Below, piece by piece: positions 24,509-39,839 of a DNA stretch of 64,000 nucleotides (its first letter is position 1; every line of letters begins with the position of its first letter). Source of the DNA: an uncultured delta proteobacterium (GTDB taxonomy: Bacteria > Desulfobacterota > Desulfobulbia > Desulfobulbales > Desulfocapsaceae); the NCBI GenBank assembly GCA_903875445.1, contig CAIQWD010000018.1, forward strand, positions 1-64,000, given 5' to 3'. The position numbers and the translations under genes are program-made. Below the pieces are notes generated by a model. The model was not told the DNA's origin. It did not search any database and saw nothing but the letters and a program-made list of their open reading frames with translations.

Positions 24509-24817
24509 TTATTTCTGTCCATCCGGCCACCCCAGAATGCCTCCTGCGAGGAACTTTACGCCGGGATGGCTTTTCTGCAGAGCATCGGCAATCGACTGGC
24601 TCACCGAGCCTCCCTTGACACAGTAGACAACCAACTCCTGGCCCGTAGGCAGAGTTTTCTTCCATTCTTCAACCTTTTCCGGATCGTACCACGTCGCCCC
24701 TTCGATCATCTCCGGCGATTTTTCGTAGTCGGTTTTTCTTCTGATGTCGAGCACACAGACCTTGGCTTTTTCAGTGAGTTTATCTTTCAATTCGAGTGGG
24801 GTAATCGAGGTACTCAT
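24509..24817 (-). CDS. Rhodanese-domain protein
   Basis: This 102-residue protein is a single rhodanese domain: a VCVLDIRRKTDY strand-helix start, and the catalytic cysteine in the loop VVYCVKGGSVS near residue 70, followed by a helix and GGILGWPDG. It can transfer sulfane sulfur or reduce oxyanions in some relatives. The start at 24817 is chosen because GGAG lies 8 bases upstream; the ATG two codons earlier would have only a 2-base spacing. It sits between chrA and a LamG-like gene. Rhodaneses near chrA occur in chromate clusters and may deal with thiol or sulfate stress; this is inference. Confidence 0.9.
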   Translation of the reverse strand: MSTSITPLELKDKLTEKAKVCVLDIRRKTDYEKSPEMIEGATWYDPEKVEEWKKTLPTGQELVVYCVKGGSVSQSIADALQKSHPGVKFLAGGILGWPDGQK

Positions 24818-24854
24818 AGTCATCTCTCCATAATGAAGGTAATTTTCTAAGATC

Positions 24855-26174
24855 TTAAAATCCAAGGAAATGCCAGAGCAAACCTGCACTTCCAGCACCG
24901 GCGATTATTGCAATAATACCGACTTCATAAAACTGCATCACAACGAATGTCACGATGGCCAGGATCGCCGAAAACCAGGCAAAACCGCTCGCCGGGAACA
25001 GCACCTGGGTGCCGAACCATACGCCGAGATTAAGAATCACTCCGACCACGGCGGGGGTGATGGTAGCTAGAGCCGCCGACATTTTCGCATTGCCGGTTAG
25101 CCGTTCTATATAGGGAGCTCCGAGAAAAATGAACATGAAACTTGGCAGAAAGGTAAAATAAGTGGCAATAAGCGAACCTGTAACAGATCCAAGAAATGGC
25201 CTCAGCGAGCCGGAATGGTTCCAACCGGCGAGAAAACCAATAAACTGCACGACCATGATAAGAGGACCGGGTGTTGTCTCAGCCAGACCAAGCCCATCCA
25301 TCATCTGCAGACTGGTCAGCCAGTGGTACTGTTCAACTCCGGCCTGGGCGATATAGCCGAGGAGAGAATAAGCCCCACCAAAAGTCAAAAAAGCTGCCTT
25401 GGTAAAAAAGTAGGCTTCTGTGGCAAAAGCTGAACCGTGCAGAAGGTAATAGAGCCCGAGAAAAGGAATCCCCCATAGGAGAAGAAAAACCGTTAACAGC
25501 AAGGTGATTCTGGAAAGAGAAGGCGTTTGATTGTGTTGTCCTTGAACATCGGCTCGAGAGGTCCCACCCGCTTGTTTCGCAGCGATAAAAAGATCTGGAT
25601 AATACTGACTGCCGATTATGCCGACAATTCCTACTGTGAGAATCAGGGCGGGAAAAGGGAGGTTGAGAAAATAGGTGCCCAGGAAAGAAAGCACGGCTAT
25701 TCCTATCAGCACATTGTTTTTCAGAGACTTCTTGCCGATCTTGATGACTGCGGCAAGGACAATGGCCAAGACGGCAGCCTTGAGGCCGACAAAGATCGCC
25801 GCCACCCAAGGCAAGGTGCCATAGGCGATATAGATATAACTGAGGCCAAAGAGTATAAACACCGAAGGCAAGACAAAGAGCACCCCGGCGACGATGCCGC
25901 CCCTGGTTTTATGAAGCAGCCAACCGATATAGGTGGCCAGTTGCTGGGCCTCGGGTCCGGGCAGAAGCATGCAATAGTTGAGGGCGTGCAGGAATTTATC
26001 ATTGCTGATCCATTTTTTTCGATCTACCAGTTCCTGGTGCATGATAGCGATCTGACCAGCAGGGCCGCCAAAACTGATCCAGCCGAGTTTCAGCCAGAAA
26101 AGAAAGGCTTCCTTGAAGGAGGGGGTGATCTGTTCCGCTCCTGCGTTTGTTGTTATGGGATTTGCTGGAGTCAT
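24855..26174 (-). CDS. chrA: Chromate efflux transporter ChrA
   Basis: This 439-residue membrane protein is a long-chain ChrA, with two homologous CHR halves. The signature of the first half is visible: FWLKLGWISFGGPAGQIAIMH, then LHALNYCMLLPGPEAQQLATYIGW. The second half repeats it as FLTFGGAYSLLGYIAQ and MDGLGLAETTPGPLIMVVQF. ChrA exports chromate and relies on the conserved glycine/proline-rich loops. About 10-12 membrane segments are present. It follows an MFS gene and chrB in the same direction. The assignment is solid. Confidence 0.96.
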   Translation of the reverse strand: MTPANPITTNAGAEQITPSFKEAFLFWLKLGWISFGGPAGQIAIMHQELVDRKKWISNDKFLHALNYCMLLPGPEAQQLATYIGWLLHKTRGGIVAGVLFVLPSVFILFGLSYIYIAYGTLPWVAAIFVGLKAAVLAIVLAAVIKIGKKSLKNNVLIGIAVLSFLGTYFLNLPFPALILTVGIVGIIGSQYYPDLFIAAKQAGGTSRADVQGQHNQTPSLSRITLLLTVFLLLWGIPFLGLYYLLHGSAFATEAYFFTKAAFLTFGGAYSLLGYIAQAGVEQYHWLTSLQMMDGLGLAETTPGPLIMVVQFIGFLAGWNHSGSLRPFLGSVTGSLIATYFTFLPSFMFIFLGAPYIERLTGNAKMSAALATITPAVVGVILNLGVWFGTQVLFPASGFAWFSAILAIVTFVVMQFYEVGIIAIIAGAGSAGLLWHFLGF

Positions 26175-26189
26175 ACATTCACCGTGTAT

Positions 26190-27410
26190 TTATGAAGAAG
26201 CTGGTATCGTCCGGCGGAAGAATAAAGCTGATATTAAAAGGATAGCTGCAATGATCGCGAAGGCCAGGCGAAAATCCTGACCGTTTGACAGACCTATCAA
26301 AAGGCCGGTGAGAATCGGGCCAGTGGCATGGCCGACATCATAGAGGGTGCCGAATACCCCCATCGCCAAGCCGATATTGTCCTCCCTGCAAAAGTCGGCT
26401 ACCATGGCCGCCGACGATGAGGTGACGATCGCCTCGCCAAGACCGAAAACCGTGGAAAGGAGCAGAAGAATTGTGTAGCTCTGCACCCAGGGAACGATGG
26501 CAAATGGCAGGGCGCAGACAAACATGCCCAAGAACAACAAAGGCCTGCGACCGTGTTTGTCGGAGATTTTGCCCATCAGCGGTTTGGCGACAATGGTCGA
26601 AAAGATCTGCATCCCCCAGATGAGCCCAGCCTGAAACTCCGAATAGCCGAGAACCATAACGATATAGATGGGCATAAAGGCCTCAAGGGCACCGACGGCG
26701 AGATTCTCCACTCCCTCCATATTGCTTGTCACCACGATTCTCCGATCTGTGAGAATGTTTTTCAGGCTATGGCAAAAATGGCTGAGCACTGCCGAAACCG
26801 TCGATTTGCCTGTGCCGTCACCTGGTTTTCCGGCCATCCCTCTGCTGGCCCAGATACCTGCCACGAGGGCGGCCATGCCGAGAGCCGCCACCACGCCATA
26901 GATGATGTGGAAGTGCAGCAGTTGCTGCCCGCCACCACTTGACAGGCGACCGAGGAGGAAACCGCCCAGGGGTGCGCCGATGAGGTTGCCGATGATGGTA
27001 ATCGACGAGAAGAGAGAAAGCATTTGGGCCCGCTTGCCATCGGCGATATCGACCACCACCGCCATGATTACCGGCCCGTAAATGGCCGTCGCGAAGCCGT
27101 GGAGAAATCTGACCACCAAGAGGGTGTTATACGAATCGACCAGCAGGTAACTAAATGGAATGACGGCAAAAAATATCAGCCCGATCAGCATGGTCCGCCG
27201 CCTACCGATGATATCGGAGATAACACCGGCAGGCATCTTGAAAAAAACTCCGGTTATAGTCGAAATGGCCACGGCAAAGCCGATAGCCTCGGGCCCTACG
27301 CCGAAAGAAGCGGCAAACAGGGCGAGCACCGGAGTCCTTGCCAGGGCATAGGAGGCTTTGGCGAGAAAACCGGAAAGGCAGAGGCCATAAAAGTTGGTGC
27401 GTGGTTCCAT
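26190..27410 (-). CDS. MFS transporter in the chromate operon
   Basis: This 406-residue protein has the 12-segment layout of major facilitator transporters. The MFS motif between segments 2 and 3 is visible (GVISDIIGRRRTM), and the equivalent in the second half is KISDKHGRRPLL. It lies between chrB and chrA in a tight operon. ChrB-MFS-ChrA orders occur in other chromate clusters; the substrate of the MFS member is not known. It has no attached domain. Confidence 0.92.
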   Translation of the reverse strand: MEPRTNFYGLCLSGFLAKASYALARTPVLALFAASFGVGPEAIGFAVAISTITGVFFKMPAGVISDIIGRRRTMLIGLIFFAVIPFSYLLVDSYNTLLVVRFLHGFATAIYGPVIMAVVVDIADGKRAQMLSLFSSITIIGNLIGAPLGGFLLGRLSSGGGQQLLHFHIIYGVVAALGMAALVAGIWASRGMAGKPGDGTGKSTVSAVLSHFCHSLKNILTDRRIVVTSNMEGVENLAVGALEAFMPIYIVMVLGYSEFQAGLIWGMQIFSTIVAKPLMGKISDKHGRRPLLFLGMFVCALPFAIVPWVQSYTILLLLSTVFGLGEAIVTSSSAAMVADFCREDNIGLAMGVFGTLYDVGHATGPILTGLLIGLSNGQDFRLAFAIIAAILLISALFFRRTIPASS

Positions 27411-27422
27411 TATCTGGCTCCG

Positions 27423-28445
27423 CTATTTCGATCCGAAATATTTGATTGCTGTTAACGAAAGAAACAGTGCTTCAAAGACAGCCACGCCCTCTTCCAGGAT
27501 CTGGCTGTCAGACAATGCTTTGTTGCGGATTCCTTTCAATATCATTTCTACTCCACGGGTCTCGGGTGACACAAATTTCTCGTCTTTTATGTCGATATCG
27601 TGGACTATTGCGGCAAGGGCGTCGAGCCCCTTTGCGGTTAGGCCAAAACTTTTTTGCAGTACTTCGAAGGTGCATAGATCCTCGATGTGGGTGAAATCGC
27701 CATTGCGAACGTCAAAAGAAACTTCGTTCTCTCTTTTTTGAGTTTTCAATTCCGCCTCTTCCCGGAAGGCAAAGGTCGCCAGCGGATCGATGAAGCGTCG
27801 GATGAGCCAGGCGCAAGCCATTCTGTCGACAAAGGGCCGCTTGCGGGTGATCCATTGCATGTTCGAAAAATCTTCAATTCTTTTGCCATTGGACAATTCA
27901 TTACCGGCAAATCTCCTCATACCTTTTTCGAGAGCAGTGAGAGCTTCCAATTGGTCTTTCAGCGTCTGGAGCCGAGCCGTCAGGTTCAGGCCCGATTCCG
28001 ATTGAAAGAAATCGCGATGCAGCACAGTATGGAAATCGGCCTGTATCTTTTCAAACTGTCTGAACAGGGAGGTGGTCTTTTTGTCCTTGCCGCCTTTGCG
28101 CAGGTTGTTGATCCGGCCGGATAGTTCATCTATCTTCTTGTCGACTTCCTGGTACTGCAGGTGCCGCTGTTCATTGAAAAAAGATATAATCTCCTGCCGT
28201 TGCAGCGGCTCAATGGTCTCCGTGGTGACGAGAAGCCCTTCTCCTTTGAGGCCGGGGAGTTCGGCGAGCATCCATTGCAGTGCCTCATGGTTGTCCTCCC
28301 GGTAAGGTAGGATGTAGACCCCGCCCTTGAGCTGAACGGCACCGGTTTTCTGCAGTTTGCGCCAAATTTTCACTCTGTTTTTTACCGGAGTGGCCGGGAT
28401 GGAATAAAAAAATAGGAGCCATTTTAAGGTTTGAACATTTTCCAT
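27423..28445 (-). CDS. chrB: Chromate resistance protein ChrB
   Basis: This 340-residue protein matches ChrB. The N-terminal part (LLFFYSIPATPVKNRVKIWRKL, then GAVQLKGGVYILPY) has the ChrB N-terminal domain, related to PaaX-type transcription factors. The C-terminal half has the ChrB catalytic-like domain (WITRKRPFVDRMACAWLIRRFIDP, then FDVRNGDFTHIEDLCTFEVL and LAAIVHDIDIKD). ChrB is reported as a chromate-responsive regulator. A coiled coil links the domains. It is the first gene of the operon and lies next to a palindrome in the promoter region, consistent with autoregulation. Confidence 0.95.
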   Translation of the reverse strand: MENVQTLKWLLFFYSIPATPVKNRVKIWRKLQKTGAVQLKGGVYILPYREDNHEALQWMLAELPGLKGEGLLVTTETIEPLQRQEIISFFNEQRHLQYQEVDKKIDELSGRINNLRKGGKDKKTTSLFRQFEKIQADFHTVLHRDFFQSESGLNLTARLQTLKDQLEALTALEKGMRRFAGNELSNGKRIEDFSNMQWITRKRPFVDRMACAWLIRRFIDPLATFAFREEAELKTQKRENEVSFDVRNGDFTHIEDLCTFEVLQKSFGLTAKGLDALAAIVHDIDIKDEKFVSPETRGVEMILKGIRNKALSDSQILEEGVAVFEALFLSLTAIKYFGSK

Positions 28446-28566: not shown

Positions 28567-28833
28567 TCACTTCTTGTTTGGTAAGGCGGGTGGTTGTTCT
28601 TCTATAGTGGGGGAGGTGGTATAGAATTTGGCTTCTTGGTCGGCAAGTTTGCCCTGCTTCAGCAGGAGGCGGAGCTGCTCGACGTTGACCGTTCGTGGTT
28701 TTCCCATGGATGCAGTGGCTGGGGATTCATGCCACACGCCTGCAAGTTCGCTGTAGCGTGCGAGGGAGAGGGTAAAAATAACCAGCAGCAGAGTGCCGAC
28801 TGCCAAGAGGTATGCCATTTCAATTTTTTTCAT
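28567..28833 (-). CDS. Small single-pass membrane protein
   Basis: This 88-residue protein begins MKKIEMAYLLAVGTLLL and has one hydrophobic segment (residues 7-25) followed by a periplasmic or cytoplasmic tail rich in Lys and Pro. Its ATG overlaps the end of the giant membrane protein gene by 14 bases, so the two are translationally coupled and it may be a subunit of the same complex. No family is recognised. Reading the frame upstream would extend it into the preceding gene, but no start signal is seen there. Confidence 0.65.
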   Translation of the reverse strand: MKKIEMAYLLAVGTLLLVIFTLSLARYSELAGVWHESPATASMGKPRTVNVEQLRLLLKQGKLADQEAKFYTTSPTIEEQPPALPNKK

Positions 28834-31800
28834 GACGGCACCTGTCACATTGCAGACAATCCAACTCGGAGCGGTTGCGCACTCCGAGATCGCACCTCTC
28901 GGGTCTCGTTTCCGGGAGGAAGCGGCGGAGCAGCCGCACACCGCCTAAAAGCGCCAGAAAGGCACCGGCCGGACAGAGATTTCGGCACCAGAAACGCCGG
29001 AAGAAAAAAGAGAGGAAGAGGACACAAAGGGCGAGGATAGTCATCGTCCGGTCACGGGCCGCACCAAAAATGGTGATGAGCGGATCGGCGTGCAGCACGG
29101 AAAAATCGCGGGTCAAGGCAAAGAGGAGGACGAAGAAAAAGAGCAGGACATACTTGGCGAAGCGGCCATAACGCCAGATTTGTTTCCGCGGGTCGGGGAG
29201 GAGTCGCCTTGGTCGGAGATCCCCGAAGAGTTCTTGCAAGGCGCCAAAGGGACAGAGGTAGCCGCAGTAGACATTGCCGAAAAGCACGGCCACTAAAGGG
29301 ATGATCCCCACGAGGAAAAAGCCGCTGTTGGTGATCTCCCAGGAAAAATTACCGGAGAGGAGCGCCAAGACCTGTTGGGAAGCATATTGAATATTGAGCT
29401 CTATACCGAAGAGGATGAGCGATACCGTCAGGAGAAGACGCCTCAGCCAAGCGCCCGGACGGTAGCGTGCGGCAAGAATCACCATCGTCCAAACCAGAAG
29501 GGCAGCAAATTGCCACGACGGCTCTGCCGAAGAGGAGGAATCGGTGTCGCCCCGAGCGGGCCGACCGAGTACGGCCTCGCCGAAGGTGCTTGCGGATCGG
29601 CTGAGGGTTTTTAGGATTGCAGCCGAGGACATTGTCGCCCCGGTCACCGCATCTATCCTCTGAAATGGCTTAGCCACGAACAGCTCCCTCTCTTTCAGGC
29701 TCTCCAGCCAGCCACGGAGAAATGCCAGATAAACCGGGGTTTCGTTGGACCTAAGGAGGCGAAAATTCTTCAGAATACCCTGGTCATCTATCCAGACGGC
29801 GAGAGGGATCTCTCCGCCGTAGCCCCTGATACCTCTTGCGAGGTTCGCCGAGGGAAAGATGTATCCGCCGGCGACCAAGTAATAGCTCAAGGTCGAACCT
29901 CCCGGAAGCGTCACCTTCTGTTCCTTACGTTCTAAGGTGCCGGCCATTTCCGCTGCTGCCGCCTGGAAGTCGGCCGCTTCATGGCCACTTTGTGAGGCCT
30001 CGAAGTCTTGGGAGACCAGCAGTGCAAATGCACCCACTGCAAACAACAGATAACCGAAGGGCCGCCGACTTCTGTCGAACCAGTTGTCGGTGACGGCGGA
30101 AACGGCATGCAGTCGGGCAATCCGGGACATAAGGTTGACGACAATAACGGCGGCGATCAAGATCACAAGCGACGCCTTTACCCCCAAAAGGGGCAAGAGC
30201 AAAAGACCGGTGGCCAGAGCCCCTGCTGCCCCTCCAAGATGATCGAGCAACTCCAAGCGTCCGGCTGCGGCCTCCACCCGGTAGCCGCCGGCATGCAAAC
30301 ACCCTGCCGCCAAGGGAAAGTACAAGCCGGAAACAACACCCACCGTGGTAAAGAACATGCCGAGAGCTAATCGGGAGGTCTCCATGGGCGAAAAGAAAAT
30401 CAAGGCGAAGAAAAAGATCGCCTCGAAAATGGTGAGCGTCAAGATAATCCGGGGAAGTGGCAAGAGCCTTCGCAGTAGCAGTCTTTCACACGAGAGTCCA
30501 CCAACCGCTGAGCCAAGCATGAATAAAGACGAGATCAACCCCATATCGAGAAAGAGGGAGCCAAAGCGAACCTGATAGCAGAACATCAGTACCACCGTCG
30601 CAGACATGCCGACCAGACCGGCCATAAAAAGCATGACTTGGATATCAAAGAGGTTCGGTATTCTCTCCGTCGCCGGTTGTTTCGATACAGTGTGCGGGGA
30701 GTTTCGCAGGTAAAAAACCCGCAACAAACCGTAGAGAAATATCCAGCCAAAGCAGATCCACATGCCATTTTCAACCAGGAATGCCGCCCCTTGGGCGACA
30801 GTGCCCAGCCCGGCACGGCGCAGGGTCAACAGCAGGTCAAAAAGGAGGGCCTTGGGGTGCTCGTCGGTATTTTCGAGAAGATTTCTCCCATATTTTACTT
30901 CGGCATTGCGGTATCTGCCCTTCTGAAAAGCGATCCGGTCCTGGGGAAAGGCGGCGAGCAAGCCCTCCTTAGGATAGAGTTCTGAGGAGCCGTCAACCGC
31001 TGCAAAACGACCGGCCAATTCCGTTGGCGACTCGCTGAGGACATCTTCCACCGAGGCAAACAAAAAACTCTCATCGCCAGGCTTCAACATCACATGGGGG
31101 AAAACCGTCGATAGGGTCGTGAGGGTCGAGGCACCAGCCAACACCCGTTCGTCACCGAGGAAATTGGCTGCACCGGATACCCTGATGGCACAGATCCCGC
31201 CGGGCGCGAGGACGTCTCGGACAAGGGAGAAGAAGGCCAGGGAAAAATAGCGGTTGAGGACGAGGGTGGTTGCCTCGGGGAGATTGACGAGCACCAGATC
31301 AAACTTTTTCCTCGTCTGCTGCAGGTAGGCCCGCACTTCCTGTTGCGGTGCATCGATATGGCCGAAGGCCTGGTAAACCCCGCTCGGTAACACTCCCAAC
31401 AGCTTCTGTGGAAACTCGGGATCGGGGTAAAGCCAAACCACCTCACGAATCTGCGGCAGCACCTTGAAACGATTGGCGATCGCCGGGCCGCCGGGGCCGA
31501 CGACGAGGACGTTTGTTGCTCGAGGGTTTTCGGCCATCGCCCAGGCAGAGACTGCCGAGGCATGCTCCTCCTCGGGCAGGGTCTCAATCACCCCGCCTTC
31601 AGTCATGACGATGAAATCGCCGGCACGTTCGCCGTACAGATATCTGGACTGGGCGGTGATGAAGCTGCCGCCATAGGTATCGACCGGGAGCAGCCGGCTC
31701 CACTGCGCCCGGGCCGCATGGCCGGCAGCAAGGCCTCCGATGTAGGTCACGGCGAGCGAGGCGGTCGCCGCACAGGCAGCAACAATGGCCCAGCGCAAGA

Positions 31801-32380
31801 GACTCATCCGCTCCGGGACAAGCAGGGCAACCAAAAGCACCAGGGCCGCATAGAGGAACACCTTTTCCCCCGGCATCCCCAGTGTAAGGAGCCCGGTAAC
31901 AAAAAGCCCGCCGACGAATCCGCCGGCGGTTTCAATGATATAGACTCGGGCAACGGGCAGGGCGAAGGCTTCCACCACCCAGGCGCAGGCCATGGAAAAG
32001 AGAAAGCCGCTGAGAAAACTGGTAGGGGCGTTGGCAAGGGCGGCAAAGGCCAGAAGAGACGGCAGAGGCACCAGGACAAAGGATTCCAGGCCGAGGAGCG
32101 ATCTGGCGCTGCCGATCAGCTGGTGCTGGACGAGATAGGCGGGGAGATAGAGCAGTGGCAGGAAAAGAAAACGGGGGAGCACCGCCGGATGTCTCAAGGC
32201 TAAAAACCTGCCGGCAACCGCACCGGCACCCACCCAGAGCAGCCATGACCCGAAGAAAGTCCCGACCGCGATTTCATTGCCTTCAAGGGAAGTGAGAAAA
32301 TCGCGAAACAGCAAGGTTTGCGAAACCAGAGCAAAGAATCCCAGGGTGGCAATGGGAACCTCTCTCGGCAGGCCTCTCAT
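28820..32380 (-). CDS. Spermidine-synthase-like/FMN-binding/NapH-like membrane fusion
   Basis: This 1186-residue protein joins modules usually found apart. Residues 1-220 are a hydrophobic block, then 285-410 is a spermidine-synthase-like Rossmann unit (VVGPGGPAIANRF near 292; FDLVLVNLP near 360 and APGGICAIR). The usual catalytic Asp position reads N, so aminopropyl transfer is doubtful. A second membrane block spans about 525-775. Residues 810-930 are an FMN-binding domain with the covalent-flavin motif DAVTGATMSS near 912. A NapH/NosR-like C-terminal membrane ferredoxin follows, with CGYLCPFG near 1038, CRNLCPAG near 1135 and a final CLQCDRC. It probably moves electrons across the membrane. 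It overlaps the upstream MEMO-AMMECR1 gene (ATGA) and the small gene downstream. Confidence 0.88.
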   Translation of the reverse strand: MRGLPREVPIATLGFFALVSQTLLFRDFLTSLEGNEIAVGTFFGSWLLWVGAGAVAGRFLALRHPAVLPRFLFLPLLYLPAYLVQHQLIGSARSLLGLESFVLVPLPSLLAFAALANAPTSFLSGFLFSMACAWVVEAFALPVARVYIIETAGGFVGGLFVTGLLTLGMPGEKVFLYAALVLLVALLVPERMSLLRWAIVAACAATASLAVTYIGGLAAGHAARAQWSRLLPVDTYGGSFITAQSRYLYGERAGDFIVMTEGGVIETLPEEEHASAVSAWAMAENPRATNVLVVGPGGPAIANRFKVLPQIREVVWLYPDPEFPQKLLGVLPSGVYQAFGHIDAPQQEVRAYLQQTRKKFDLVLVNLPEATTLVLNRYFSLAFFSLVRDVLAPGGICAIRVSGAANFLGDERVLAGASTLTTLSTVFPHVMLKPGDESFLFASVEDVLSESPTELAGRFAAVDGSSELYPKEGLLAAFPQDRIAFQKGRYRNAEVKYGRNLLENTDEHPKALLFDLLLTLRRAGLGTVAQGAAFLVENGMWICFGWIFLYGLLRVFYLRNSPHTVSKQPATERIPNLFDIQVMLFMAGLVGMSATVVLMFCYQVRFGSLFLDMGLISSLFMLGSAVGGLSCERLLLRRLLPLPRIILTLTIFEAIFFFALIFFSPMETSRLALGMFFTTVGVVSGLYFPLAAGCLHAGGYRVEAAAGRLELLDHLGGAAGALATGLLLLPLLGVKASLVILIAAVIVVNLMSRIARLHAVSAVTDNWFDRSRRPFGYLLFAVGAFALLVSQDFEASQSGHEAADFQAAAAEMAGTLERKEQKVTLPGGSTLSYYLVAGGYIFPSANLARGIRGYGGEIPLAVWIDDQGILKNFRLLRSNETPVYLAFLRGWLESLKERELFVAKPFQRIDAVTGATMSSAAILKTLSRSASTFGEAVLGRPARGDTDSSSSAEPSWQFAALLVWTMVILAARYRPGAWLRRLLLTVSLILFGIELNIQYASQQVLALLSGNFSWEITNSGFFLVGIIPLVAVLFGNVYCGYLCPFGALQELFGDLRPRRLLPDPRKQIWRYGRFAKYVLLFFFVLLFALTRDFSVLHADPLITIFGAARDRTMTILALCVLFLSFFFRRFWCRNLCPAGAFLALLGGVRLLRRFLPETRPERCDLGVRNRSELDCLQCDRCRHEKN

Positions 32381-33936
32381 ATCTCGCTTTCACCGAAGAC
32401 AATGGCCTGAAAGACGGTAAACGACGCCCCCTTCTGCCAGGCATCCGGTGGAAGACCGGCCTTCAGGGCGAGCTGGGAAAGCATTTCTTCGAGCCCCCAA
32501 CCCTGCTCCGGGGCGACCTGGGGCAGGAACACGGCGCTTCGCCCGTTTTTTTGCAGAACCACTCCGTCCCGGCCGATGACGATGTCGTGGTAGGAGGGGA
32601 CCGGCGTGGGCGGGGTGAGGGCGGAGATCTCGAAGGACAGTTCTTTGAAATCGTCCTTGTTCACCGGTGAAAATCGGTAATCGTTCACCGCCGCATCGAT
32701 GGCTCGGTGCATGACCGCCTCATACAGCGGTCGTACCGGGGTAATCTCGCCGATGCATCCCCGAAGATTTCCGTGCTCCTTCAGAGTAACAAAGGCACCC
32801 ATGATCTGCTGCATTCCGGGGGTGAGTTCGATGCCTAGTTGCGAAGGCGTCGGGGCTTTGCCCTTCTCCAGATAGCCTTGCAAAGTGCCTTTCGCCAGGG
32901 CCATGAGGCGGATTTTATCTTCCCCTGATAAGCCGGGGCTAACGGCAGTCTTTTTTTCTTTTGCAGCCACCTCCCAGTTGCCGGCAACGGCGGCGCTCAG
33001 GTAACTGACTGAATGGGAAAAATCTTGGGTCTTGGCAGCCGAGGTTTCATAGTGCAGCAGCTGGACTCTGCTTTTTGCCGGAAGCATGGCCAGCAGCACC
33101 TCGATTGCCGCCTGACCGCAGATAGTGGCACCGGTCCGCTCTACATAGGCGGAAAAACCCCGGAGATTTTTGTCCTCGATTAACTGGAAAGCACCCATAT
33201 CAAGTTTTTTCAAGTTTTCCTGGATATCCGCAGTAAAGGGAAGGTAGCCGAAACTGCTGCCGTAGTGGGTAAAGTCGCTTGATGCGACCACCAGAGTGTC
33301 AGGGGTGAGGTGGTGCCGCAGTATCTCGGCGATGGCCTCGACCGAGGCAATGTCAAGCCTGCCGAGGACGATGGGCACAAAGCGGAAATCCCCCAATCTT
33401 CGCTGCAGGGCCGGGAGGAGGACCTGGACGCTGTGTTCGTTTTCATTAGCCGTCGGGACGACATGGAAGTACGGCGATTGCAACAGTTCGCCGATGAGAT
33501 CGACATCCAGGGGCGTTTCACCGAGTGGTGTGGCGTAGTGGGTCGCATCCGGCAGACTCGCCGAATTCTCCATGAAGACATGGTGCGAAGGCCCGAGGAT
33601 GATGACCTTGCGGATTTTTGCCCCTTCAACCTGCTTGAGCCCGTAGGCGGCAGTCTGTCCCGACCACTGCAGTCCGGCGTGCGGCAGGATCAAGGCACAG
33701 ACCGGCGGAAGAAGCTCGTCGGGTACACGGCTCAGATATCCATCGATTTCCGCCGATAACTTGGCTGGGTCGGCGTCATACCAGGTGCCGGCAAAGGGTG
33801 AGGGAAAGACCCTTTTTTCTGTATCCCCGCCTGGCTTGGAAGCTTCAGGTTCACTGGGACCGGCTGCTAAAAAGGCCGGCAGGATAAGCCCCAAACTGCT
33901 CACGAGAAAGAGAGTGACAACAAGACTTTTGTGCAT
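32377..33936 (-). CDS. Exported MEMO-AMMECR1 fusion (AmmeMemoRadiSam)
   Basis: This 519-residue protein fuses the two non-radical-SAM parts of the AmmeMemoRadiSam system. Residues 1-25 are a signal peptide (MHKSLVVTLFLVSSLGLILP). Residues 45-315 are the MEMO domain, with the histidine/aspartate metal-site motifs LILPHAGLQWSG, LGPSHH and SSDFTHYG. Residues 335-519 are an AMMECR1 domain with GNLRGCIGEI. MEMO proteins resemble LigB-type dioxygenases and bind metal. Export is unusual, because family members without a signal peptide are the norm. It lies directly upstream of the redox fusion and downstream of a Tat-signal protein, so the system probably works outside the cytoplasm. The target is unknown. 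Confidence 0.93.
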   Translation of the reverse strand: MHKSLVVTLFLVSSLGLILPAFLAAGPSEPEASKPGGDTEKRVFPSPFAGTWYDADPAKLSAEIDGYLSRVPDELLPPVCALILPHAGLQWSGQTAAYGLKQVEGAKIRKVIILGPSHHVFMENSASLPDATHYATPLGETPLDVDLIGELLQSPYFHVVPTANENEHSVQVLLPALQRRLGDFRFVPIVLGRLDIASVEAIAEILRHHLTPDTLVVASSDFTHYGSSFGYLPFTADIQENLKKLDMGAFQLIEDKNLRGFSAYVERTGATICGQAAIEVLLAMLPAKSRVQLLHYETSAAKTQDFSHSVSYLSAAVAGNWEVAAKEKKTAVSPGLSGEDKIRLMALAKGTLQGYLEKGKAPTPSQLGIELTPGMQQIMGAFVTLKEHGNLRGCIGEITPVRPLYEAVMHRAIDAAVNDYRFSPVNKDDFKELSFEISALTPPTPVPSYHDIVIGRDGVVLQKNGRSAVFLPQVAPEQGWGLEEMLSQLALKAGLPPDAWQKGASFTVFQAIVFGESEI

Positions 33937-34011
33937 CGTTATGCCCCCTGTCAGATGACTATTATTTGCAGAGCGGAAAATCAGTCAAAATCCCACGGTG
34001 TCTCAGGCCCT

Positions 34012-34200
34012 TCAGCCGGCCCATTTCCCCGGACGGCTGACACTTTCTTGATCCAATGGGCGAACAGGACCTGGGTAGTATCTCCCCCGCAAGGCCTGGA
34101 CAACCCGGGTATCTTCCGTTTGCCGAATCCACCGTGCCATCGGCACGGCTATGACCGCGCACAGTGCCGTTATTCTCAACAAGAAACCTCTGCGACTCAT
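34012..34200 (-). CDS. 62-residue Tat-signal protein
   Basis: This small frame begins MSRRGFLLRITALCAV, a twin-arginine-type signal (SRRGFLL) followed by a hydrophobic stretch and a basic, Pro-rich tail ending GKWAG. The ATG overlaps the stop codon of the radical SAM gene (TTATGA), so translation is coupled. Its length (62 residues) made it easy to miss. It may be a membrane-anchored or exported small partner of the MEMO-AMMECR1 protein. No family is recognised. Confidence 0.75.
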   Translation of the reverse strand: MSRRGFLLRITALCAVIAVPMARWIRQTEDTRVVQALRGRYYPGPVRPLDQESVSRPGKWAG

Positions 34201-35168
34201 AACCACACGCCGTATATCTGGCGATTGCATCGCGGGCACCTCCCGTTTTCGATAGTGTTTTTCAGGACTTCGAAGGCTCGACGCTCGATCAAGAGGTCGC
34301 CACATTCCGGACAGAAGGTGTTTTCCCCGTCGGGCACCAGGATGTTGCCGAGGTACACGTAATAGAGCCCCGCGCTCCTGGCGATTTCCCTGGCTCTGAT
34401 CAGCGCTGAAGCCGGAGTCGGGGGAAGATTCTTCATTTGGTAGTTGGGAAAAAAGCGCGAGAAATGCAGCGGTATCTCGCGGCCGAGGTTCTGGACAATC
34501 CACTGGCAGAGGGCACGAATTTCCCGGTCGCTGTCGTTTAAGGTAGGGATGAGGAGGTTGATCACCTCGATATGGACGCCGAGCGATCTGGTGGTAATCA
34601 GGCTGTCCAGCACCGGCTGCAGGGTAGCGCCGCAGATATCCTGATAAAATTTATCGGTAAGGGCCTTTAAATCGATGCGCACCGCATCTACCTTTCGGCA
34701 CAGTTCGGTCCATGGCTCGCGGTTGATGTAACCAGCGGTAACCAGCGCGTTTTTCAGGCCTGCTTCGCGCACACACAGGGAACTGTCGGCGGTATATTCG
34801 TAATAAACGACAGGGTCGGTATAGGTGTAGGATACCGAGCGGCAGCCATGCGCTGCTGCTAACTTTGGAATCTCCGCCGGAGAAAGAGGAGAGGCCGGAA
34901 CTTCCTCGGGGTTCTGTTGGGAAATCTCCCAGTTCTGGCAGTTCTTGCAATGCAGATTGCAGCCGACAGTGGCGAGCGAAAGGCTGGTTGTTCCGGGAAG
35001 AAAATGGAAAAACGGCTTTTTCTCGATCGGGTCCACATGCACTGTACAAGGATGTCCGTATGTTACCGCAACCAGTCGACCGTCGAGGTTCACCCGAATG
35101 CGGCATTCACCACTTTGGCCGGGTTCTATCATGCATCGTTTGGGACACAAGTCGCAGCGGATTATCAT
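34197..35168 (-). CDS. amrS: AmmeMemoRadiSam radical SAM enzyme
   Basis: This 323-residue protein is the radical SAM member of the AmmeMemoRadiSam system, related to pyruvate-formate-lyase-activase-type enzymes. The [4Fe-4S]/SAM motif is CNLHCKNC with Cys70, Cys74 and Cys77. N-terminal CDLCPKRC (residues 5-12) and a C-terminal zinc ribbon (CPECGD and CPRC) frame it. It has no signal peptide, so it is cytoplasmic. It overlaps the upstream protease gene by ATGA and the downstream Tat-signal gene by three bases. The family's substrate is not established. Confidence 0.95.
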   Translation of the reverse strand: MIIRCDLCPKRCMIEPGQSGECRIRVNLDGRLVAVTYGHPCTVHVDPIEKKPFFHFLPGTTSLSLATVGCNLHCKNCQNWEISQQNPEEVPASPLSPAEIPKLAAAHGCRSVSYTYTDPVVYYEYTADSSLCVREAGLKNALVTAGYINREPWTELCRKVDAVRIDLKALTDKFYQDICGATLQPVLDSLITTRSLGVHIEVINLLIPTLNDSDREIRALCQWIVQNLGREIPLHFSRFFPNYQMKNLPPTPASALIRAREIARSAGLYYVYLGNILVPDGENTFCPECGDLLIERRAFEVLKNTIENGRCPRCNRQIYGVWL

Positions 35169-37066
35169 TGGACGAGATCTTCGCAGGCAGCGGTGTCGGT
35201 CGGATAGAGGTCTTCGAGGATGAGGGTGATGGCAAGGATCTGCTCCTCCCTTTGCACCTTCATAAGAACGCTGCCGCTGGCCGGTCCGTGCAGCATATAA
35301 CGCAAGGGGGTTATGGGATGGTTTGGACCTACGGCCTGCCCGTCCATCTCGACAATGATATCCCCGGCAACAAGGCCGGCCTTGGTTGCCGGACTGTTGT
35401 CGGCGACAAAGGAGATCATCGGCTGGTTGTTTTCCGCGCGGCCTATGATCAGACCGGATTTGTCGCGGGGAAAGGCGACATTGAAACTGATACCTTCTTC
35501 CAGGATGATTTTCTGTTCGGGATAGTTGAGGAAGAGGTGAAAATGGCGCAGGGTGGAGTTGCCGAGATTGCCCCCGACTTCGCCAAGCGCCGTCGCCCCG
35601 ACGCCTTTTTCAATGGGAAGGGAGATGAGAGGCAGGTCGAGCCGGAAACGGTCGATTTGCAAGCAGTTGAACTGAATATTCCTCTCACGGGAAAGCCCCG
35701 ACATGCCTTGGCTGACGATTTCCACCCCCACTCTGTCGAGCAGCCCGTGCTTTTCGGCAAAGGGGTAATGGATGGAGCTGTGATAGGAGCCGAGATCAAG
35801 GCTCCAGAGGCTTTTGAAGGTGCCATCAATGGTTACCGGCAGGGAGAAGGTCCGGTATTTCAGCGGGGCATCGATCACTACCCCGGACCCCTGGTAATGA
35901 AAGGATTCGGGGGCGTGGAAGGTGACCTGTTTCCGGTCGTAATCGATCTCCACCACGAAGCGGGAGAGGAAGTCATAGCCGAGGATGCCGACCATCAGCG
36001 GTTCGTAGCTCCTGGCCTCCAGGCCTTTTGAAACATACAATTTCTGGCTGTCGAAGTGGATGGAGCCGACCTGATGCCCGGGTACCTTGACGAAGGACAG
36101 GTCGAATAATGCACCAAAGCCGTAACCCTTGATATTACCCTGGACTTCCATACCAAGTTTTTCAGCATACTCCTGGTCGATAACCGACATCGAGGCGCCG
36201 CTGTCAAGCACCCAATATTGGGTGTCGCCGCCGACAGTGACCGGCAGATAGATAAGATTTTCAATGAATTCGAAGGGAATCGTAGCCGAGGTGTCGCCAT
36301 CGGGGAAATGGTAGCCTTTTTCTGTCCGCGGCGGCAGAAAAAGTCCTTCATCGATCCTTTGGTTGTTGGTGTAATGGGTGATCCAGGTTTCTTCGGTCTT
36401 TTCCCAGGGATGGAAGGTGTTGTGCTGATGAAAGGGCATGAGAATGCCGTCCACTTCGCGAAAATCGTCGTAAACGCTTTCTGTCTCCATATCCGGCTGA
36501 TGGTGCAGGGATTTGACCATGTACAGGGTCTCTTTATCGAAGAAGAAATGGCCGCGATCGGTATTGATGGTGTTGGTGAGTACGACCTCGTAACAGGGGC
36601 GGTCGCCTATGGTGGCAATGCCGGCGAAGGCCATGGAGAAATTGGGGGATTGCCGGTCGAGGTGTTCATACTGGTCGAGAAGTACGCTGATACGCCTACG
36701 TTTCAGGGTCTCTTCATCTTTGACGATCAGCAGTTGCCCATTGGTATCGTAGAACCAGGCGTAATCACCGCTATCGCCCTCGATCTGGGAAATGATCGAA
36801 TAGTCCTCCTCGGTCCGGTATTGCAGGGGCCGGTTTTCCCAATGTTTGAAGGTTCCCTGCAGGCCGTCGTAGTGGACCCGGCCCTCGCTCTGGCTGGTGA
36901 TGATGCTTTTCAGACGCTCAAGGCCGCCGACCGCCGCATAGTGGGCCTGCATTATTTCGTATGGGTCGGAGAGGTCGGTGCTTCTACCGGTTCCCGCCAG
37001 CAGCAGGGTGCAGAGGCATATCAGGGCAATATTGATGGCTCTAGCGGGAAAAGGTAGGCGACGCAT
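35165..37066 (-). CDS. Exported retropepsin-like protein with PDZ domain
   Basis: This 633-residue protein has a signal sequence, an N-terminal LolA-like beta domain (residues 35-240), then a retropepsin-type aspartic protease domain with the motif VLDSGAS near residue 287. A second retropepsin-like unit near 423 reads LDLGSY, which lacks the standard D(T/S)G and may be the partner half of a pseudo-dimeric active site. A PDZ domain closes the protein (residues about 530-615). It starts 13 bases after the OmpA-like lipoprotein gene and overlaps the radical SAM gene, linking the two blocks of the operon. It probably cleaves or scaffolds a periplasmic substrate. Confidence 0.88.
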   Translation of the reverse strand: MRRLPFPARAINIALICLCTLLLAGTGRSTDLSDPYEIMQAHYAAVGGLERLKSIITSQSEGRVHYDGLQGTFKHWENRPLQYRTEEDYSIISQIEGDSGDYAWFYDTNGQLLIVKDEETLKRRRISVLLDQYEHLDRQSPNFSMAFAGIATIGDRPCYEVVLTNTINTDRGHFFFDKETLYMVKSLHHQPDMETESVYDDFREVDGILMPFHQHNTFHPWEKTEETWITHYTNNQRIDEGLFLPPRTEKGYHFPDGDTSATIPFEFIENLIYLPVTVGGDTQYWVLDSGASMSVIDQEYAEKLGMEVQGNIKGYGFGALFDLSFVKVPGHQVGSIHFDSQKLYVSKGLEARSYEPLMVGILGYDFLSRFVVEIDYDRKQVTFHAPESFHYQGSGVVIDAPLKYRTFSLPVTIDGTFKSLWSLDLGSYHSSIHYPFAEKHGLLDRVGVEIVSQGMSGLSRERNIQFNCLQIDRFRLDLPLISLPIEKGVGATALGEVGGNLGNSTLRHFHLFLNYPEQKIILEEGISFNVAFPRDKSGLIIGRAENNQPMISFVADNSPATKAGLVAGDIIVEMDGQAVGPNHPITPLRYMLHGPASGSVLMKVQREEQILAITLILEDLYPTDTAACEDLVQ

Positions 37067-37078
37067 TGATGTAAGCCG

Positions 37079-37681
37079 TTAGCGAACCATGACCTCAACC
37101 CGTCGATTACGGGGCTCGGCAACGTTGTTGGCGGTGGGAATGAGTGGGTTGCCTTCCCCATGATAGGAGATAGTCATATCCTCTGGGCTGACGTTTTCAG
37201 TACGGAGGATGTCGTAAACCCGCTGCGCCCTTTCAAAGGAGAGTGTGCGGTTGTGTTCGGCGCTCCCGGTCCTGTCGGTATGACCGATTACCGAGATATC
37301 CCGGGACTGGCGTTTCTTGATGGCTTCGAGTATGTTGCCGATAAGATTTTTCGATGCATCGGTCAATTCATTGGAATTAAATTGGAAATAGAGAATAAAA
37401 CTCTCGGGCATAAGGGGTTGAACCTGGAGCGCTTCCTGAAAAACTCGCTGGGTGTCCTCCTGGCTGATTGGCGCCGGAGTGGAAGGAGCGGAGTTGTGGC
37501 CGCCGATGAAGATGGCCTTGCCACCTTCGTCCAACACCCCTGAGCCTTTATCGGTTGCAACCTTCAGGGCACCCACGGAGCCGTCGTCTGCCGGGCTGAG
37601 CACAACGAAATTTTCCTTGGCACTGCAACCGGCAAAGAGGAGCATAATTGCCGCTAGCACGATTAAGCTTTTCCAGTTCAT
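37079..37681 (-). CDS. OmpA-family lipoprotein
   Basis: This 200-residue protein begins MNWKSLIVLAAIMLLFAGC, a lipoprotein signal with the lipobox FAGC. An OmpA peptidoglycan-binding domain follows (ILYFQFNSNELT, VIGHTDRTGS, then NRTLSFERAQRVYDIL and NRRVEVMVR), anchoring the outer membrane to the wall. The ATG at 37681 has GGAG at 6 bases; an ATG four codons upstream is less well placed. It lies fourth in a cluster of envelope genes. Confidence 0.92.
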   Translation of the reverse strand: MNWKSLIVLAAIMLLFAGCSAKENFVVLSPADDGSVGALKVATDKGSGVLDEGGKAIFIGGHNSAPSTPAPISQEDTQRVFQEALQVQPLMPESFILYFQFNSNELTDASKNLIGNILEAIKKRQSRDISVIGHTDRTGSAEHNRTLSFERAQRVYDILRTENVSPEDMTISYHGEGNPLIPTANNVAEPRNRRVEVMVR

Positions 37682-37745
37682 GGGATTCTCCATTTTTGGA
37701 GGTGAAGATTTAAGTGCGACACTTTACGACCTTTTCTTACTCGCC

Positions 37746-38204
37746 TTATTCGGTAAACCTTGCCTTAAAACTGGTTTCCTCCTTGAGCATGCTGATCCGA
37801 CCGACCGGAGTATCCAGCTCAACCGCATGGGGTGCCAGTTTGCCAAGCAAACCCGATTGGTAGACAAAAGTGCCGTGCTGCATATTGAGGCGCATGGCAT
37901 ATTCGTTGGTGGCTGGGGCAAAGGTGAATTTATCCATGGAAACACGGCTGATCGGTCCCATGGAGATGAGAGTATTGTCTTCGAGGAGGATTCCTATCGC
38001 CCCATCCGAACCGGTGAGGATGGTGTCGCTCTGATAAATGCGGTCATTGGGAAACGCCGGTTTGGTCTTGCCATCCCGAAGGATGGAGACAAGACCTCGA
38101 AGCCCTTTGACTTTGCCGATCACCCTTGGTTCGGCAAAGGCCAGAAGGGGCAGGGCGCAGAGCAGCAAAACGGCCAGACAAGAGTGCAAGAGAGGTTTTT
38201 TCAT
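37746..38204 (-). CDS. FecR-domain exported protein
   Basis: This 152-residue protein has a signal peptide (ending AFA) and a FecR-like domain: GKVKGLRGLVSILRDG, then NDRIYQSDTILTGSDGAIGILLEDNTLISMG and HGTFVYQSG. Such stand-alone FecR domains are common in periplasmic proteins next to OmpA and CsgG genes, and probably bind peptide or polysaccharide. No cognate sigma factor or receptor is nearby, so a signalling role in the classical FecR sense is unlikely. Confidence 0.85.
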   Translation of the reverse strand: MKKPLLHSCLAVLLLCALPLLAFAEPRVIGKVKGLRGLVSILRDGKTKPAFPNDRIYQSDTILTGSDGAIGILLEDNTLISMGPISRVSMDKFTFAPATNEYAMRLNMQHGTFVYQSGLLGKLAPHAVELDTPVGRISMLKEETSFKARFTE

Positions 38205-38312
38205 CGCAGTTTCTCCAGTGTCAGGTATATCATCGGCAACGTGCCTGTCGAATACTTTGCAGGGATACCAGTATCTTGGCGCCGTGTAAACGTTTCATCT
38301 TCAGGCGGGGAC

Positions 38313-39776
38313 TTACAGCTCTTTGAGACTCTTCTCGGCATAGCCCTTAAGTTTATTGTGTGGTGCCTCGCTTGCCACCTTACTGAGCGTTGCCCGATAC
38401 TTACTTTGGCCCGAAGCCCCCAAGGCCTTGCACAGCCAGGACAAGGTGTCAATCCGGTCATCGCGGTCGTTGGTGCTCGTGAGATATCCTTTAAGCAACA
38501 CCCTCTCAACCGCGTCGAGTACCACCGTGTCGCGAAGCTTGGTCTTGACCATCAGCTGGGCTGCATCTTTTTGTTCCTTGGTGTTGTTGGAGTCAAGCAT
38601 CCGGAGATACTTCGCCTGTTCGGATGTCAATTGGGGGCTCTGCTGTGGTTGTGGCTGTGGCTGTGGTGGTTGTGCTTGTATTTGCGCTTGTTGACGTTGA
38701 TGTGGTTGTGGTTGCTGTTGTGGCGGTGGCGGTGGCGGTGGTGTGAAGGTTTCTTTTTTTACCGCTATGGGTTGTTTCACAGGGGTTTCATCAGAGGCAA
38801 CATTGCCTGCGCTCAGGGTCATTGAAAGGTTTCTCTCGTCATTTTTTTCTAGCGTCACCCATTCTCTGGCGGATTTATAGCCCGAGGCAGTTGCTTCGAC
38901 ATGATACGGTCCGGGGTCAAGCACCATACCCGGTTCGTATGCCTTGGAGATATTGAGGATGCGGACCTTGGCATTGGCCGGCGTTACTGTCACGGTGAGT
39001 CGTGCTTTCTTTGGTGTCGTGTCAATCAGGCTTTTCACCAGTTGGCTGTAAGTAACGGAACCGGAACTGGTTTCCTCGTCTATTTTAGCGGTGCAGATTT
39101 TCTGAGCGACACTGGTAATGGTAACCTTGCCCGTCTCAATACGCTCCACATCGAGGACTTCCCCGGTCTTCGGATGTTTTATAATCTGCCCCTCCTTGTA
39201 GACGATAAAGCGCATGCCGTTTTTTACCCCGGTGCGAATACCGAGATCCAGGGTAACCGAGTCACCGCTTCGATTGACCACATAGCCTTCAAGGGGAAAA
39301 TTTTTGATAATTTTATCCGACATCTCTACGACCATATCCTGGAGATTGGCAGTAGAGGCACCTTTAATGTTTTCAGCAGCGATAATGGAGGCACTTTCGA
39401 CATCGATGATCCGGGCGTTGATCTCGGTGACATCTTTGAACTTCATGACGGAACCGCTGATGATGACCTTGACGCCAAGCAGTTTTCCTATCTGGGTGGC
39501 ACTCGTGGCGTCGACGATCCCGGACATTGCCAGCTTCTGTTCGCCAAGGATCTTTTCAAGCATTCTTCTTTCCACCACGTCGAAGCGGCCCTCGCGGACC
39601 ATGGCGGTGGTGAACCACTCGGCGACAATAGTTCCCATGTCCTTGTTGTCGAAGTTTTCCCCTTGCAGCTGGAAATCGAGAACGGCAATTTTTGTTTTAC
39701 TGAACTCGGCCGAAGCAGAGAGGGGCACAAGTAAGGCAATTATCAAGAAAGATAGAAGCTTCATTAAATTTTTCAT
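38313..39776 (-). CDS. CsgG-like exported protein with PEGA domain
   Basis: This 487-residue protein has a signal peptide, then a CsgG/FlgO-like fold (IAVLDFQLQG, RFDVVERRMLEKIL, LGVKVIISGSVMKF). A PEGA domain follows near residues 270-330 (PANAKVRILN and GPYHVEATASGYKS). A Pro/Gln-rich linker of about 50 residues, with runs of P and Q, leads to a helical C-terminal domain. CsgG-type proteins form outer-membrane export pores or periplasmic assembly factors. No lipobox is visible, unlike true CsgG. The ATG has AGGAG at 6 bases. It may export or assemble surface polymers such as the repeat protein at 2629, but that is only a guess. Confidence 0.87.
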   Translation of the reverse strand: MKNLMKLLSFLIIALLVPLSASAEFSKTKIAVLDFQLQGENFDNKDMGTIVAEWFTTAMVREGRFDVVERRMLEKILGEQKLAMSGIVDATSATQIGKLLGVKVIISGSVMKFKDVTEINARIIDVESASIIAAENIKGASTANLQDMVVEMSDKIIKNFPLEGYVVNRSGDSVTLDLGIRTGVKNGMRFIVYKEGQIIKHPKTGEVLDVERIETGKVTITSVAQKICTAKIDEETSSGSVTYSQLVKSLIDTTPKKARLTVTVTPANAKVRILNISKAYEPGMVLDPGPYHVEATASGYKSAREWVTLEKNDERNLSMTLSAGNVASDETPVKQPIAVKKETFTPPPPPPPQQQPQPHQRQQAQIQAQPPQPQPQPQQSPQLTSEQAKYLRMLDSNNTKEQKDAAQLMVKTKLRDTVVLDAVERVLLKGYLTSTNDRDDRIDTLSWLCKALGASGQSKYRATLSKVASEAPHNKLKGYAEKSLKEL

Positions 39777-39839
39777 CGTAAACTCCTAAGCCGGGTGGAT
39801 GATACAATCATCCCGAGGCGTTTTGATTCGGATATGGAA

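Follow-up and report, generated by a model that had tools for sequence, protein, structure and literature searches.

The closest described relative of the locus reported here is the AmmeMemoRadiSam system, defined by three curated families (TIGR04335-TIGR04337) of AMMECR1, MEMO and radical SAM proteins; the AMMECR1 and MEMO families, which have no assigned function, include human proteins. The present locus resembles that system in passing all three cut-offs and in keeping the cysteine motifs and the MEMO metal triad intact, and differs from it in a MEMO-AMMECR1 fusion that is apparently exported, in a radical SAM enzyme (rSAM) shortened at its N-terminus and accompanied by a Tat mini-protein, and in a membrane partner of SpeE/MFS-FMN-NapH type. 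A second described arrangement, the Tat hitchhiker, consists of a signal-bearing partner that carries a folded, signal-less enzyme, as in NiFe hydrogenases and formate dehydrogenases (PMC10924467). The putative carrier considered here has only about 43-68 aa and is an apparent detached piece of its own cargo, and the cargo is an rSAM. The nearest solved fold, as judged from the model of a relative of the rSAM (L149), is that of pyruvate formate-lyase (PFL) activating enzyme, which is shorter (244-245 residues) and cytosolic, unlike the proposed exported rSAM. To our knowledge, all radical SAM chemistry described so far takes place in the cytoplasm, which provides both SAM and low-potential electrons.

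Within the window, i.e. the whole stretch of 64,000 nucleotides that was analysed, positions 28567-37066 hold six intact and adjacent open reading frames on the minus strand (Table 1). Overlaps of 4 nt (retropepsin/rSAM), 4 nt (rSAM/mini-protein), 4 nt (fusion/SpeE-like protein) and 14 nt (SpeE-like/small protein) and a gap of 75 nt between mini-protein and fusion bear out the six coupled genes with four overlapping junctions that an earlier note on this DNA had described.

Table 1. Genes and motifs of the operon for the proposed exported AmmeMemoRadiSam system, in window coordinates
Feature	Position	Strand	Remarks
Retropepsin-like aspartyl protease (Asp_protease_2) + PDZ	35165-37066	-	633 aa; first gene
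Radical SAM enzyme (rSAM), TIGR04337	34197-35168	-	323 aa; without signal
Radical SAM cluster motif CNLHCKNC	34938-34961	-	coordinates computed from residues 70-77
Tat mini-protein	34012-34200	-	62 aa; MSRRGFLL... signal, tail ending in GKWAG
MEMO-AMMECR1 fusion	32377-33936	-	519 aa
SpeE-like/FMN_bind/NapH-like membrane protein	28820-32380	-	1186 aa
Flavinylation-type motif DAVTGATMS, residues 910-918	29627-29653	-	
First CxxxCP motif, residues 1039-1044	29249-29266	-	predicted cytoplasmic side
Second CxxxCP motif, residues 1132-1137	28970-28987	-	predicted cytoplasmic side
Small membrane protein	28567-28833	-	88 aa; one hydrophobic segment

The retropepsin/PDZ protein (PF13650, 51.7 bits; PF17820, 42.1 bits) has a hydrophobic, signal-like segment at its N-terminus and orthologues (78% identical) in loci L035 and L036; phmmer at E 1e-3 revealed no homologue in the other loci compared. 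The fusion starts with a Sec-type signal peptide (about residues 1-25, by eye and hydropathy), followed by a MEMO domain (residues 48-315; TIGR04336, 200.5 bits, cut-off 26) and an AMMECR1 domain (residues 346-514; TIGR04335, 162.7 bits, cut-off 99). With 378.1 bits for the rSAM against TIGR04337 (cut-off 220), all three curated models are exceeded. Residues H86, H118 and C273 of the MEMO domain are conserved and align to H49, H81 and C244 of human MEMO1, which are its Fe/Cu ligands according to PMC11081632. The AMMECR1 motif LRGCIG (391-396) is invariant in ten aligned sequences and might, by way of speculation, be a candidate site of radical transfer. Scattered over three other contigs of the window genome (G000) are a separate rSAM (45% identical), a MEMO and an AMMECR1, and the operon thus represents an extra set.

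The complete six-gene set is present in one congener (G005, locus L035), and in another (G001, L036) the upstream part, from the retropepsin gene through rSAM and mini-protein to the start of the fusion, runs up to the contig end. The neighbourhood highlighted in the earlier note is reproduced elsewhere, and was found in this exact order within the genus only; the unit that recurs beyond the genus consists of the MEMO-AMMECR1 fusion, the SpeE-like membrane protein and the rSAM. Fusions of the window's kind occur in 12 of the 57 genomes searched, the window's own included and that of G001 matched only up to its contig end. In nine loci of relatives (L037-L045) an SpeE-like protein (about 700 aa) and an rSAM (about 390-400 aa) come after the fusion. 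Among the best 80 named loci of a wider scan, with groups taken from record titles and binning errors of metagenome-assembled genomes (MAGs) possible, all three components were found together in Desulfobacterales, Desulfobulbaceae and their relatives, and in MAGs with the titles Bacteroidales (L112, where the fusion lies on the opposite strand), Chlorobiota (L128), Fibrobacter (L079) and, with the SpeE-like gene on the other strand, Terriglobia (L127) and Altiarchaeota (L062). The fusion and a Tat-tagged rSAM, with no SpeE match in the stretch, were found in Neomarinimicrobiota (L115, L125), Bryobacterales (L106) and Altiarchaeales (L066). No further recurrent neighbour of the triad was prominent in the gene strings inspected by eye. 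As judged from these sequences, an AmmeMemoRadiSam system with an apparently exported rSAM is widespread, if little studied, among bacteria and extends to some MAGs titled as archaea.

A signal on the fusion goes together with a Tat motif on the neighbouring rSAM. By script, 34 loci had both, 6 the fusion signal only, 1 the Tat motif only, and 17 neither. This table was corrected by eye for three rSAMs with Tat motifs below the script threshold (L041, L049, L051) and for one fusion whose start codon had been missed (L061, which has a hydrophobic stretch); five second contig copies (L041, L129, L141, L143, L154) were dropped, and loci lacking a usable rSAM or a fusion N-terminus in the stretch were left out. 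After correction the rSAM is Tat-tagged in all 40 loci with an exported-type fusion, 37 in cis and 3 in split form (L035, L114 and L138, the last being the window's operon), and in 0 of 17 loci with a non-exported fusion. The fusion N-terminus of L111 (MNAVKILLIMACFSFS), one of these 17 loci, might on inspection be taken for a signal; the rSAM of L111 lacks a Tat signal, no mini-protein was found, and the enzyme sits inside the exported group of the rSAM tree. If L111 is counted as exported, the figure becomes 40/41. In a tree of 86 rSAMs the cis-Tat and split enzymes group together, and tree-aware counting yields two independent transitions between states, or one without L111; the contrast of 40/40 with 0/17 accordingly does not stand for many independent events. 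With L180 and L111 omitted, a single branch separates the exported rSAMs from the rest (SH-aLRT 86, not starred). A topology in which the exported rSAMs form one clade and both L180 and L111 are forced outside was rejected (p-AU 1e-4). Together with the Sec-type signal of the fusion and the Tat signal of rSAM or mini-protein, the association upholds the earlier view that the system is directed outside the cytoplasm, and it extends that view, in that the rSAM enzyme itself is, from its sequence context, very probably exported.

The longer rSAMs of relatives carry a twin-arginine signal at their own N-terminus. Among the 51 rSAMs with the cis-Tat label 39 have RRxF, where shuffling gives an expectation of 0.98, and among the 27 with the cytosolic label none has it; the cis-Tat label itself is built on a looser motif. 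A looser Tat motif for which no start codon is demanded occurs in 48/51 cis-Tat and 1/27 cytosolic N-termini. The curated Tat model PF10518 matches 10 of 40 rSAMs at E up to 1, 34 of the 40 being labelled cis-Tat. A TatC gene (190.6 bits) lies directly upstream of a Tat-rSAM in L062, and TatC is present in the window genome. A phylum sample was formed, export disregarded, from the best TIGR04337 match of each of the 30 best-scoring of 118 genomes. In it, 17 rSAMs bear their own Tat signal (16 recognised by script and L191 by eye), 5 have the split form (the window's being one) and 8 keep the strand segment described below with no signal, one of these, L180, having its N-terminus cut off at a contig end. 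An enzyme of a kind that is usually intracellular thus appears, by its N-terminal signals, to leave the cytoplasm.

The window rSAM begins with MIIRCDLCP, lacks the EAxxY segment of its relatives, and has cysteine motifs CxxCxxxC at residues 5-12 and CxxxCxxC at residues 70-77. In the model of the cis enzyme L149 (pLDDT 93.6), EALYY opens a hairpin made of a strand (39-43), a turn (44-47) and a second strand (48-51) that leads to the first cysteines. By this numbering the split rSAMs begin within the turn 44-47, which places the split in or near the hairpin turn. The nearest solved fold of the model is PFL activase (Z 23.4, rmsd 2.1, 225 residues), followed by the NifB family (Z 17.7, rmsd 2.9, 214 residues); by sequence, PFL activase is also among the nearest curated families, behind TIGR04337.

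What the shortened enzyme lacks seems to be encoded next to it. The mini-protein has a twin-arginine n-region (SRRGFLL) and then a hydrophobic stretch; an upstream ATG at 34230 would lengthen it to 72 aa, the start at 34200 being most likely because L035 and L036 start there with the same 4-nt overlap with rSAM. Nine genomes (the window's, G005, G001, L114, L166, L167, L173, L169 and L199) show the slot order rSAM, mini-protein, MEMO. In seven of them the rSAM starts abruptly, either right at the first cysteines or a few residues ahead of them, and in the other two (L173, L199) its start is lost at the contig end. Mini-protein tails read KADFWRKGDRLAG, KEAQFYKRGDRWAG and KKAMFWRNTDEA, and ESVSRPGKWAG in the window's genus, where the fit to the KEAxFY segment is loose and the poorest; the ending G..AG/WAG is common to eight of the nine, L114 differing. 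Cis enzymes have KEALYYEKY at the place matching the tail, and minis from outside the window's genus seem to carry the strand segment missing from the rSAM. A single profile comparison of the nine minis with cis N-termini gave 85% probability (E 6e-6), part of the likeness being the Tat signal itself. The curated model TIGR01409 matches one of eight minis (E 0.047). With no more than 15 candidates scored per genome, a profile of the minis (E up to 0.01) finds matches in at least 14 of 395 genomes, six of them strong (E below 1e-11) and eight weak (E 1e-4 to 0.01), one of the latter (L200) reading as a Rieske-type protein. In a scan of 15 loci the mini was confined to those whose rSAM has no N-terminus of its own; control loci showed odd RR-containing reading frames, none of them between rSAM and MEMO with such a tail. 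The Tat mini-protein thus looks like the detached N-terminal signal of the rSAM, whose export here probably rides on a separate tiny Tat protein. A generic small Tat protein was considered and rejected, given the single slot in nine genomes and the absence of the rSAM N-terminus in 7/7 visible cases. Multiple independent fissions were set aside too: a quick tree places the split enzymes in two places, yet one clade scores higher (p-AU 0.646), and a single fission of rSAM and mini is, on these trees, not rejected.

The third component is the membrane protein, in which a predicted MFS-like half, an SpeE-like domain, a second predicted MFS-like half, FMN_bind (residues 853-926; PF04205, 34.3 bits, predicted outside) and a NapH/NosR-like Fer4_5 module follow one another. 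The fold was taken from an AlphaFold model of a 712-aa homologue, L041 (pLDDT 87.7), which has a soluble domain with seven long helices before it and seven after it; hydropathy alone gives six helices ahead of the SpeE-like domain, and loop charges place this domain outside, in the predicted periplasm. The membrane part of the L041 model is MFS-like (VMAT1: Z 28.4, rmsd 3.9, 346 residues) and its soluble part resembles polyamine aminopropyltransferases (1uir_A: Z 27.7, rmsd 3.6, 282 residues; 1uir_B: E 1.1e-11). As in other membrane-fused SpeE-like proteins, an SpeE domain is thus combined with membrane helices, and the adenosyl-site E and D are each kept in 31/34 sequences; we take the acidic residue to contact the ribose and D the adenine, as in SpeE structures. 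Unlike in those proteins, the domain sits between two MFS-fold halves and is predicted to be periplasmic, and the first Asp of DSTDP, presumably one of the catalytic pair of spermidine synthase, is absent in 30/34 (kept in L063, L069, L073 and L127). The window protein reads NLPEATT at this place, i.e. the catalytic Asp pair is not present, and its degenerate adenosyl site has Y in place of E and E in place of D, as has that of L035; L126 has H for E. An SpeE-like protein was found in at least 40 of 76 exported-fusion loci, a lower bound since many stretches end early, and in 0 of 29 others.

The TGAT motif of FMN_bind predicted outside and the CxxxCP motifs predicted inside are those of NosR/NapH- and RnfG/NqrC-type proteins, from which the present protein differs in being fused to an SpeE/MFS membrane protein. 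The main text of the 2021 flavinylation survey (PMC8238504) contains none of the words AMMECR1, Memo, spermidine or radical SAM by word search. The predicted periplasmic FMN-type domain and cytoplasmic Fe-S motifs favour the wiring to electron transfer put forward in the earlier note, as a feature of some members and not of the system in general: FMN_bind and NapH are fused to the SpeE-like protein in the window, L035 and L126, L037-L045 hold the SpeE-like/MFS part only, and separate Fer4_5 proteins lie beside the set in L114 and L057 and about 4 kb off in L106 and L127. A search for the flavinylation-type motif in the fused protein of L126 (1301 aa) gave no match; fusion N-terminus and rSAM of L126, which would show its export state, lie off the contig. 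ApbE is needed for covalent FMN attachment; it was not found in G000 (95% complete) and is present in congeners G001 and G005 and in the genome of L126; a check of 9 genomes found it in 8, G050 being the exception. The tail of the window's small protein (QLRLLLKQGKLADQEAKFY) resembles the C-terminal tail of the L126 fused protein, an indication that the small protein is part of the unit. A KEAxFY-like motif in the small protein (QEAKFY in the window, read by eye; pattern matches in L035 and L126) is an alternative candidate source of the segment missing from the rSAM.

On balance, we think it probable from these sequence data that the locus encodes an extracytoplasmic AmmeMemoRadiSam system whose rSAM is exported as a Tat hitchhiker. 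The rSAM would fold and take up its [4Fe-4S] cluster in the cytoplasm and bind the mini-protein, which brings the twin-arginine signal and also, recognisably in the minis from beyond the window's genus, the N-terminal strand segment that the enzyme lacks; the Tat translocase would then carry both, the signal being fused in cis in most relatives examined. In the periplasm the enzyme would work with the Sec-exported MEMO-AMMECR1 protein, its metal triad intact, on some target in the envelope, for which the closeness of the rSAM fold to PFL activase might suggest a protein backbone position. The MFS-fold/SpeE-like protein may supply SAM to the periplasm, or clear 5'-deoxyadenosine and methionine from it, and in the window's lineage the FMN and NapH-like extension could pass electrons from the cytoplasm to the periplasm and so fire the cluster. 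The oxidative or reductive, protein- or metal-modifying role suggested earlier is a guess. The bolder proposition, that a whole rSAM clade works outside the cytoplasm with its own SAM or deoxyadenosine transporter, and that here a 62-aa Tat peptide replaces the N-terminus, at least partly restores the fold and smuggles the enzyme across, strikes us as evenly balanced between right and wrong.

We know of no report of SAM in a periplasm, or of any precedent for it outside the cytoplasm, and this gives weight to an alternative that we nevertheless regard as unlikely, in which the rSAM performs its reaction in the cytoplasm and only afterwards leaves it, or becomes anchored in the membrane through an uncleaved Tat signal. 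The periplasmic partners would then work with its product or with the protein that it has modified, and periplasmic SAM would not be needed. Several cis signals and the window mini-protein have no clear AxA cleavage site by eye, as would fit an anchor. Tat substrates are, however, generally translocated and not left inside, and the MFS-fold protein with its adenosyl-type domain, predicted to lie on the outer face and found only beside the exported form, would call for an external adenosyl compound.

Less probable still would be that the mini-protein is the peptide substrate of the rSAM, in the manner of a RiPP precursor, its tail (FYKRGDRWAG, GKWAG) being modified and exported as an active product or cofactor. 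PFL activase acts on a peptide glycine, and a small peptide encoded beside an rSAM with this fold relative, the shared G..AG/WAG pattern and the retropepsin-like protease co-encoded in the window's genus would all suit such a role. Against it, the mini is restricted, in the 15 loci scanned, to those with an N-terminally incomplete rSAM, the equivalent segment of cis enzymes is part of the chain and is ordered in the model, and 37 of the 40 exported systems counted have no separate peptide. Least credible, and already disfavoured, is an ordinary cytosolic AmmeMemoRadiSam set with chance signal-like N-termini in a local operon grouping, for which the separate copies of the three genes in G000, the low scores by curated Tat models and an association resting on one or two transitions might be invoked, but which is at odds with the RRxF excess, the matched MEMO and rSAM signals, the SpeE link, the nine mini genes in one slot and the TatC gene beside one Tat-rSAM.

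With hitchhiker export of the rSAM as the preferred reading, what stands out most as new is the group of apparently exported rSAMs together with the split Tat mini-protein. The literature covered, outside which most subscription journals and preprints lie, yielded no description of a radical SAM enzyme that is exported, and none of a SAM exporter or a membrane spermidine synthase. If the exported clade is real, cells would have to supply SAM and low-potential electrons outside the cytoplasm, and the AMMECR1 and MEMO families would gain a concrete setting, that of the envelope, a metal and a SAM-derived radical. The natural split of rSAM and mini-protein would offer a simple test of whether a small Tat peptide can carry an enzyme.

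Directly 3' of the six-gene AmmeMemoRadiSam operon and on the same strand lies what is likely a chromate-response group, and the region upstream of the operon, also on this strand, is an envelope gene group (see table).

Location of the neighbouring gene groups and of features at loci from other genomes
Feature	Location	Strand	Remark
ChrB-like protein	within window 24509-28445	-	PF09828, 144.8 bits
MFS transporter	within window 24509-28445	-	
Chromate transporter	within window 24509-28445	-	PF02417, 254.6 bits
Rhodanese	within window 24509-28445	-	
OmpA-like lipoprotein	within window 37079-40967	-	
CsgG-like protein	within window 37079-40967	-	
FecR-like match	within window 37079-40967	-	under curated cut-off
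FlgT-like match	within window 37079-40967	-	under curated cut-off
Radical SAM enzyme, Bacteroidales	L111:2979-4040		
Separate MEMO and AMMECR1 genes	L199:1161-2445		
Tandem MEMO-AMMECR1 fusions, WOR-3 MAG	L110:7986-11197		
TatC	L062:5892-6599		MAG titled Altiarchaeota
Small membrane protein, congener	L035:3105-3482		

The radical SAM enzyme of the Bacteroidales locus falls within the exported group of the tree, and neither a Tat signal in cis nor a mini gene was seen for it; the fusion at this locus may carry a signal, as judged by eye. In a second lineage with a split radical SAM enzyme (L199 and L198), MEMO and AMMECR1 are encoded by two separate genes, each product having its own N-terminal hydrophobic segment preceded by a K/R run. 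Of the tandem fusions in the WOR-3 MAG, the first has a lipobox-like signal (by eye) and the second has none. The TatC gene of L062 is located immediately 5' of a Tat-tagged radical SAM enzyme.

A motif resembling the KEAxFY segment of the radical SAM enzyme, G[KR]LSDKEAxxY, is present in the small membrane protein of the congener and at the C-terminus of the fused membrane protein of L126. Three genomes (G086, G091 and G122) feature nine TIGR04337 matches each at E <=0.001, tallied by E value, which may reflect expansion of the family or the presence of related activases among the matches.
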